From: a virus
Length of the DNA: 27,705 nt
Reading direction: 5' to 3' (one strand)
Virus record (IMG/VR): IMGVR_UViG_3300006790_001776
Coordinates: 1 to 27,705 of that record
Part shown: piece after piece, positions 25,336-25,365 of the stretch
Layout: the number at the start of each line of letters is the position of its first letter
How positions within the stretch are numbered: position 1 is the stretch's first letter
Translations under genes and position numbers: made by a program
The notes under the pieces: model-generated
Seen by the model: the letters and a program-made list of their open reading frames with translations, nothing else
Told to the model about the DNA's origin: nothing
The model's database searches: none

Positions 25336-25365
25336 TTGACATACGCGTCTTACCAGGCGTATGTT
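25336..25365 (+). promoter_or_regulatory. Early promoter with embedded dyad and shared element (copy 8)
   Basis: TTGACA (25336-25341), 18 bp, TATGTT (25360-25365), the best sigma-70-like promoter in the window, facing the plus-strand early genes. The spacer holds ACGCGTCTTACC (25343-25354), framed by the inverted repeat CATACGC (25340-25346) / GCGTATG (25357-25363). Expected leader ~40 nt to the 25411 ATG. The arrangement is that of a repressible promoter. Confidence 0.7.

Follow-up and report, generated by a model that had tools for sequence, protein, structure and literature searches.

A repeated late-strand 16-bp element overlaps a putative early promoter in a divergent gap of an uncultured tailed phage

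A lambda-type switch has two divergent promoters that share operators, with three operators in tandem and a promoter for the repressor. The terminase of phage SPP1 reportedly represses its own synthesis, to go by the title of a work cited on the subject. In SPP1, pac overlaps PL1/PL2 and gene 1, and the terminase genes are adjacent; as far as the cited accounts go, no divergent early promoter is described (PMC6316719, PMC4737164). Phage L5 has a repressor of 183 amino acids with an N-terminal helix-turn-helix (HTH) and 20-30 oriented, asymmetric sites of 13 bp, which are located at promoters and in short intergenic spaces, one of them upstream of the repressor gene (PMC9283540, PMC6550527). 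Short asymmetric motifs, tens of them, are found between the open reading frames of the Nostoc cyanophages A-1 and N-1, and the authors left undecided whether these are promoters or stoperators (PMC4916379).

Regulation is seldom readable from sequence in uncultured phages. Here we analyze a 27,705-base IMG/VR virus record, IMGVR_UViG_3300006790_001776 (the window), which comes from an uncultured tailed phage, is classed as linear and is probably a fragment lacking the right part of the genome. A divergent gap of 131 bp (25280-25410) has the gene of an HTH protein on its left, on the minus strand, and small plus-strand genes on its right (Table 1). The strand opened by the HTH gene carries the structural genes. 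Plus-strand genes are called early and minus-strand genes late, labels that are taken from gene layout and not from expression data. With one gap and a countable site, the locus suggests a testable regulon of one protein, six or more sites and one early promoter.

Table 1. Coordinates of the features discussed (positions in the window)
Feature	Position	Strand	Remarks
Portal-like gene	5980-8217	-	Named for matches of ~20-27% identity to genes near the terminase in relatives
Large terminase gene	8752-10569	-	Structural genes
HTH gene	24719-25279	-	186 amino acids; GTG start without a clear ribosome-binding site
First early gene	25411-25731	+	Kyano_Gp96 / phrog_554 family
-35 box TTGACA	25336-25341	+	Early promoter
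-10 box TATGTT	25360-25365	+	Early promoter; transcription start expected near 25372
Palindrome ACATACGC-N10-GCGTATGT	25339-25364		Perfect 8-bp arms, 25339-25346 and 25357-25364
Element GTAAGACGCGTATGTC	25338-25353	-	One mismatch to GTAAGACRNGTNNRAC
Degenerate element copy GTATGACACGTAATAC	25375-25390	+	Two mismatches; shortly beyond the expected start and 21 bp upstream of the first early gene
Putative RNA hairpin	25378-25418	+	25378-25387 pairs with 25409-25418, ten pairs
Element copy	24419-24434	+	Two mismatches; orientation opposite to the late genes
Element, exact consensus	23769-23784	-	105 bp upstream of 23347-23664
Element, exact consensus	21934-21949	-	Within the spacer of TTGACA-17-GACATT
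Element, exact consensus	10595-10610	-	26 bp upstream of the large terminase gene
Element, exact consensus	8223-8238	-	6 bp upstream of the portal-like gene
Element, weakest counted copy	5968-5983	-	Two mismatches; upstream of the radical SAM gene

Among described systems, the L5 type appears closest in its working. As in L5 and cluster A, a protein of repressor size (186 versus 183 amino acids) has an N-terminal HTH, a site lies upstream of its gene, and repeated intergenic sites are oriented with transcription, here in six of seven late-strand gaps with the copy at 24419 reversed. By contrast, the site is 16 bp long with two similar halves instead of 13 bp and asymmetric, about 6-8 sites are seen in 27.7 kb where L5 has 20-30, and no lysogeny genes were seen in the window. 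Alignment of the protein with Bxb1-type repressors is limited to a 40-residue HTH stretch (BLASTP E 0.007; hhalign probability 9.3), and a tblastn search with it retrieved no cluster A phage from a collection in which Bxb1 gp69 finds 1082 records. The Nostoc motifs are likewise short intergenic repeats that may be promoters or stoperators, but they belong to different phages, are not consistently oriented with the flanking genes and, as far as the cited account goes, have no described link to an early promoter (PMC4916379). An HTH protein gene with a promoter and a putative binding region upstream resembles the pac/PL1-PL2 arrangement of SPP1, whereas here 14 kb separate this gene from that of the large terminase. 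In that an operator-like dyad covers a promoter and the HTH gene next to it diverges, the region recalls the lambda switch; however, we recognized a single promoter and saw neither three tandem operators nor a repressor promoter.

Judged by two hexamers near TTGACA and TATAAT that are 16-18 bp apart, positions 25336-25365, which read TTGACATACGCGTCTTACCAGGCGTATGTT (TTGACA-N18-TATGTT), match at 10 of 12 hexamer positions with a spacing of 18 bp. No other site within 8000-27705 reaches 10/12, and in the whole window two coding-region sites do, at 4834 and, with a 19-bp spacer, at 22905. Ranked by an approximate E. coli weight matrix, the site is second in the window after 4834 and the best in non-coding DNA, so that the preliminary description, which had it as the best sigma-70-like promoter in the window, holds for non-coding DNA but not overall. 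Promoter-like sites within 8000-27705 are not enriched over shuffles (8 observed versus 11.9), and the match by itself is thus weak evidence. The analysis supports a sigma-70-like promoter that points toward the small plus-strand genes and probably starts the early genes.

Scanning the whole window, we found no good sigma-70-like promoter facing the HTH gene. The best minus-strand site over 25338-25353 scores 5.98 bits (rank 344 in the window) and the best over 25375-25390 scores 5.38 bits (rank 520). The HTH gene is indeed transcribed away from the gap, as had been proposed (24719-25279 on the minus strand, with small genes on the plus strand from 25411), but the further proposal that this is the layout of a switch region is not supported in its lambda form, which requires two divergent promoters where the best HTH-facing sigma-70-like candidate stands at rank 344. 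The same description had placed a 7-bp inverted repeat within the promoter spacer. An inverted repeat is present, but its arms are 8 + 8 bp and overlap both hexamers, the left arm reaching into the -35 box by ACA and the right arm into the -10 box by TATGT. At up to three mismatches this palindrome occurs once in the window versus 0.02 expected; as a DNA pattern it had no match in IMG/VR, and an Rfam search was without a match. We considered the palindrome as an RNA terminator and rejected this, as no T run directly follows it.

Copies of the dyad-spacer sequence led to GTAAGAC on the late strand, and from there to a repeated 16-bp site with the consensus GTAAGACRNGTNNRAC. Another entry point, GCGTCTTAC taken as an SPP1-like box (10 matches versus 4.5 expected), was rejected as such and led on to the same GTAAGAC element. 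The late strand holds seven copies of GTAAGAC, six in or at the edge of gaps before late-strand genes and the seventh 14 bp inside the HTH gene. Among the seven late-strand upstream gaps it is the most widely shared 7-mer, found in six by our own gene calls, on which this count depends, and in none of 1000 shuffles was this reached. Sharing is likewise above all 1000 shuffles for GGTAAGAC (5/7 gaps, with all five late-strand copies in the window intergenic) and for GGTAAGACA (4/7 gaps). Coding segments of equal length equaled the sharing of GTAAGAC, GGTAAGAC and GGTAAGACA in 1, 3 and 13 of 2000 draws, respectively. With naive automated gene calls GGTAAGAC is still the top 8-mer, but in 3/7 gaps and equaled in 5 of 100 shuffles, which weakens the gap test.

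The full 16-mer, at up to two mismatches, has 13 matches in the window versus 1.50 expected, a number that none of 100 shuffles reached; eight of the 13 are intergenic, and six of these are on the late strand. It is composed of two GTNNNAC-like halves that are 9 bp apart, by a symmetry test that takes the sites as independent, which they are not. Two similar halves are as expected for a dimer or a two-domain protein. When each copy was left out in turn, the copy in the divergent gap ranked 13th in the window and that at 5983 ranked 27th, which places both among the weaker copies.

The copy in the divergent gap takes up four of the six -35 bases and 12 of the 18 spacer bases of the early promoter; the outer half of the copy coincides with the left arm of the palindrome, and 59 bp lie between the end of the copy and the HTH start codon. 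By this geometry, any protein occupying the late-strand copy would be expected to obstruct RNA polymerase at the early promoter. Elsewhere, the first bases of the 5968-5983 copy are the stop codon of the portal-like gene, and this copy overlaps the -35 box of TTGACA-17-TAGCTT. Three of the five best sigma-70-like sites in the window overlap an element (25336 on the plus strand, 5974 and 21959 on the minus strand), with p 0.0005 when elements are placed at random in intergenic DNA and p 0.068 when each may move only inside the gap it came from. Four of the six elements have TTGAC nearby, at 17, 10 and 5 bp upstream in three of them and 9 bp inside the fourth, and the portal and terminase copies have no convincing promoter adjoining. 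Because the distance between TTGAC and the element varies, an operator fits better than a core promoter element, and for this reason we favor repression over promoter function.

We tentatively put first, as a serious possibility rather than a probable account, that the sites form an oriented set in the style of operators or stoperators, one copy of which is placed on the early promoter, so that one phage regulator would act on early and late genes. Host RNA polymerase would recognize TTGACA-N18-TATGTT and transcribe the early genes rightward from it. On the opposite strand, this promoter's -35 box and spacer form a copy of GTAAGACRNGTNNRAC, the same site that recurs with the direction of transcription in late-strand gaps. 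A phage DNA-binding protein on these sites would shut the early promoter while acting on the late operons, which it would silence or time, and on the gene next to its own site in the gap, with the palindrome and the degenerate copy at 25375 as further contacts. One regulator could in this way govern both the early and the late gene sets. More speculatively, the regulator might be the adjacent 186-amino-acid HTH protein, a candidate binder of the repeated site, which would then be autoregulated.

Should the site prove stoperator-like, genome-wide silencing of this type would extend to phages that are not related to the ones where it was elucidated. We regard as unlikely the most specific form of this idea, in which a phage outside the actinobacteriophages, from a tailed-phage family of aquatic type with a Verrucomicrobia-binned relative, would use L5-like global silencing. 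An unrelated HTH protein would act on an oriented 16-bp site that is present in all late gaps and over the early promoter as well, and the divergent gap would combine early promoter, operator and autoregulatory site.

The main rival is that the 16-bp element is a phage-specific late promoter, read by a phage RNA polymerase, sigma factor or activator, which would overlap the early promoter head to head and exclude it in turn. We consider this somewhat unlikely. It would account for the absence of a sigma-70-like promoter facing the HTH gene, and it agrees with the strong conservation of the core and with the position of the element upstream of late genes in a single orientation in 6/7 late gaps. 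The offset from TTGAC boxes, however, varies, one copy is placed just 6 bp before the portal start codon, and the copy at 24419 points against the late genes. A T7-type RNA polymerase (PF00940) was found in none of 42 related records and none of five other records, which are fragments, by a search that detected the T7 control. Were the site a late promoter, the gap would pack together an early and a late promoter that exclude each other. On either reading, operator or late promoter, control would be exerted through the repeated site that the gaps have in common rather than through the palindrome by itself, and we keep in this form the idea of a control region from the preliminary description.

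Distinctly unlikely, in our judgment, is an ordinary early promoter that coincides only by chance with the palindrome and with a copy of the repeated site. All chance figures for promoter and dyad are post hoc: in order-1 simulations of the 131-bp gap, a promoter of at least 10/12 arises in 6.6% (20,000 gaps) and an 8-bp dyad with a 0-20 bp spacer, taken alone, in 5.8%. This last value speaks for coincidence, as do the lack of enrichment of promoter-like sites over 8000-27705 and the fact that the hexamers themselves supply three of the eight pairs. A promoter of at least 10/12 with an internal 8-bp dyad, however, arose in only 9 of the 20,000 gaps (0.045%), and with the hexamers held fixed a random spacer yields such a dyad in 0.3%; moreover, the GTAAGAC of the spacer belongs to a window-wide pattern. 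Post hoc as they are, these statistics favor a functional dyad.

Codon use of the HTH gene fits the other genes of the phage better than that of the long antisense frame (0.217 versus 0.078). A single-sequence structure model of its product is confident for an HTH at about residues 31-65 and of low confidence elsewhere, including two long predicted helices (91-139) and the C-terminal part, where one would look for the second DNA-binding (stoperator) domain of a cluster A repressor. Structurally, the model comes closest to the immunity repressor of a cluster A2 mycobacteriophage (Z 6.0, 44 residues), with which transposases and resolvases tie when matches within 1 Z are taken as ties. No small terminase is among the 50 structural matches listed, and Foldseek structure searches gave E above 0.04 everywhere. 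We found no family for the protein in PHROG, Pfam and NCBIfam and no relative in IMG/VR.

That the HTH gene encodes the small terminase subunit, with the gap as a pac-like packaging region over its promoter, has the SPP1 precedent (PMC6316719, PMC4737164), the HTH with its two predicted long helices, the place of the gene as the first on the structural-gene strand and the lack of another candidate beside the large subunit in its favor, but is improbable given that small-terminase families, which diverge fast, gave no match at E limits of 1 for Pfam and PHROGs and 10 for NCBIfam, that 14 kb separate the gene from the large subunit, that the element is spread over six gaps unlike a single pac site, and that a terminator-like hairpin (24631-24616) follows the gene.

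Just after the HTH gene, 24672-24710 is a perfect tandem repeat of the 7-bp unit CTGGGGC in 5.6 copies. Nested inverted repeats with 16-bp arms (94%) and an RNA fold z of -2.3 are also present, at 24467-24516, within the 328 bp that separate the HTH gene from 24025-24390.

As single-protein queries in IMG/VR, the HTH protein, the large terminase and the portal-like protein retrieved no relative. By DNA similarity to phages, 24600-27705 retrieved 11 records, none over the gap; the best of these match the gene at 26557 and the rest are short or marginal pieces. Two relatives identified through that gene (L003 and L004) have nothing else in common with the window. A degenerate terminase pattern, EFGGxPSDR, located 56 loci (L012-L067). 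Apart from L053 and L054, all of them (54) code for a related large terminase, and most of the 54 also carry the 18512-20320 protein at ~40% identity. In IMG/VR phages this family is large; close matches to it in the annotated phage collection are few. Neither the HTH protein nor the first early protein occurs in any of the 42 related records searched whole, or in the other related loci.

A scan of genome contigs with the 18512-20320 protein gave three loci. One of them, L068, is a contig of a Verrucomicrobia metagenome-assembled genome and has structural genes syntenic with those of the window, but without such a gap; its binning is no more than a hint of a host group. Neither the IMG/VR nor the phage and contig searches gave a relative with the same divergent gap. 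None of 107 loci contains the consensus 16-mer, and as no relative carries it, the element has no evolutionary support. In the repeated-site test, none of 14 related records stands out like the window (L068 and L070, with fewer than five gaps per strand, gave no line).

Within the structural gene cluster, glycosyltransferase-like genes and a radical SAM protein occupy 2180-5924 on the minus strand, and L068 has a similar set of transferases. The best NCBIfam match of the radical SAM protein is HpnJ, far under the HpnJ cut-off. A 139-codon plus-strand frame with phage-like codon use (0.269) is located at 10858-11277, amid the minus-strand structural cluster.

At the other end of the gap, where the first early gene begins, the putative RNA hairpin would enclose its start codon in the stem and leave its AAGGA in the loop; one of 200 shuffles was as stable. 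In T4, helices over start codons restrain genes such as e, soc and 49 (PMC3014915). The hairpin here overlaps the degenerate plus-strand copy of the element, and the same bases may thus serve DNA binding only.

Farther into the early genes, ACCAACCCCAAAA occurs exactly three times on the plus strand (25740-25752, 26830-26842 and 27160-27172), each time shortly before an early gene (25766, 26859 and 27187) and followed by an A-rich GAAA(G/A)AC stretch. It is possible that ACCAACCCCAAAA is an early-gene leader element. A search with the intergenic motif CACCAACCCCAAAA..GAAAGAC gave one match, within a coding region read as carbamoyltransferase-like. Between the first two copies of ACCAACCCCAAAA, the plus-strand gene at 26557-26802 belongs to phrog_6004, and its product resembles proteins of E. 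coli phage FtMidnight, Methylophilales phages and mycobacteriophages at 51-58% identity, a distribution that marks it as an apparently widely traveled small early gene.
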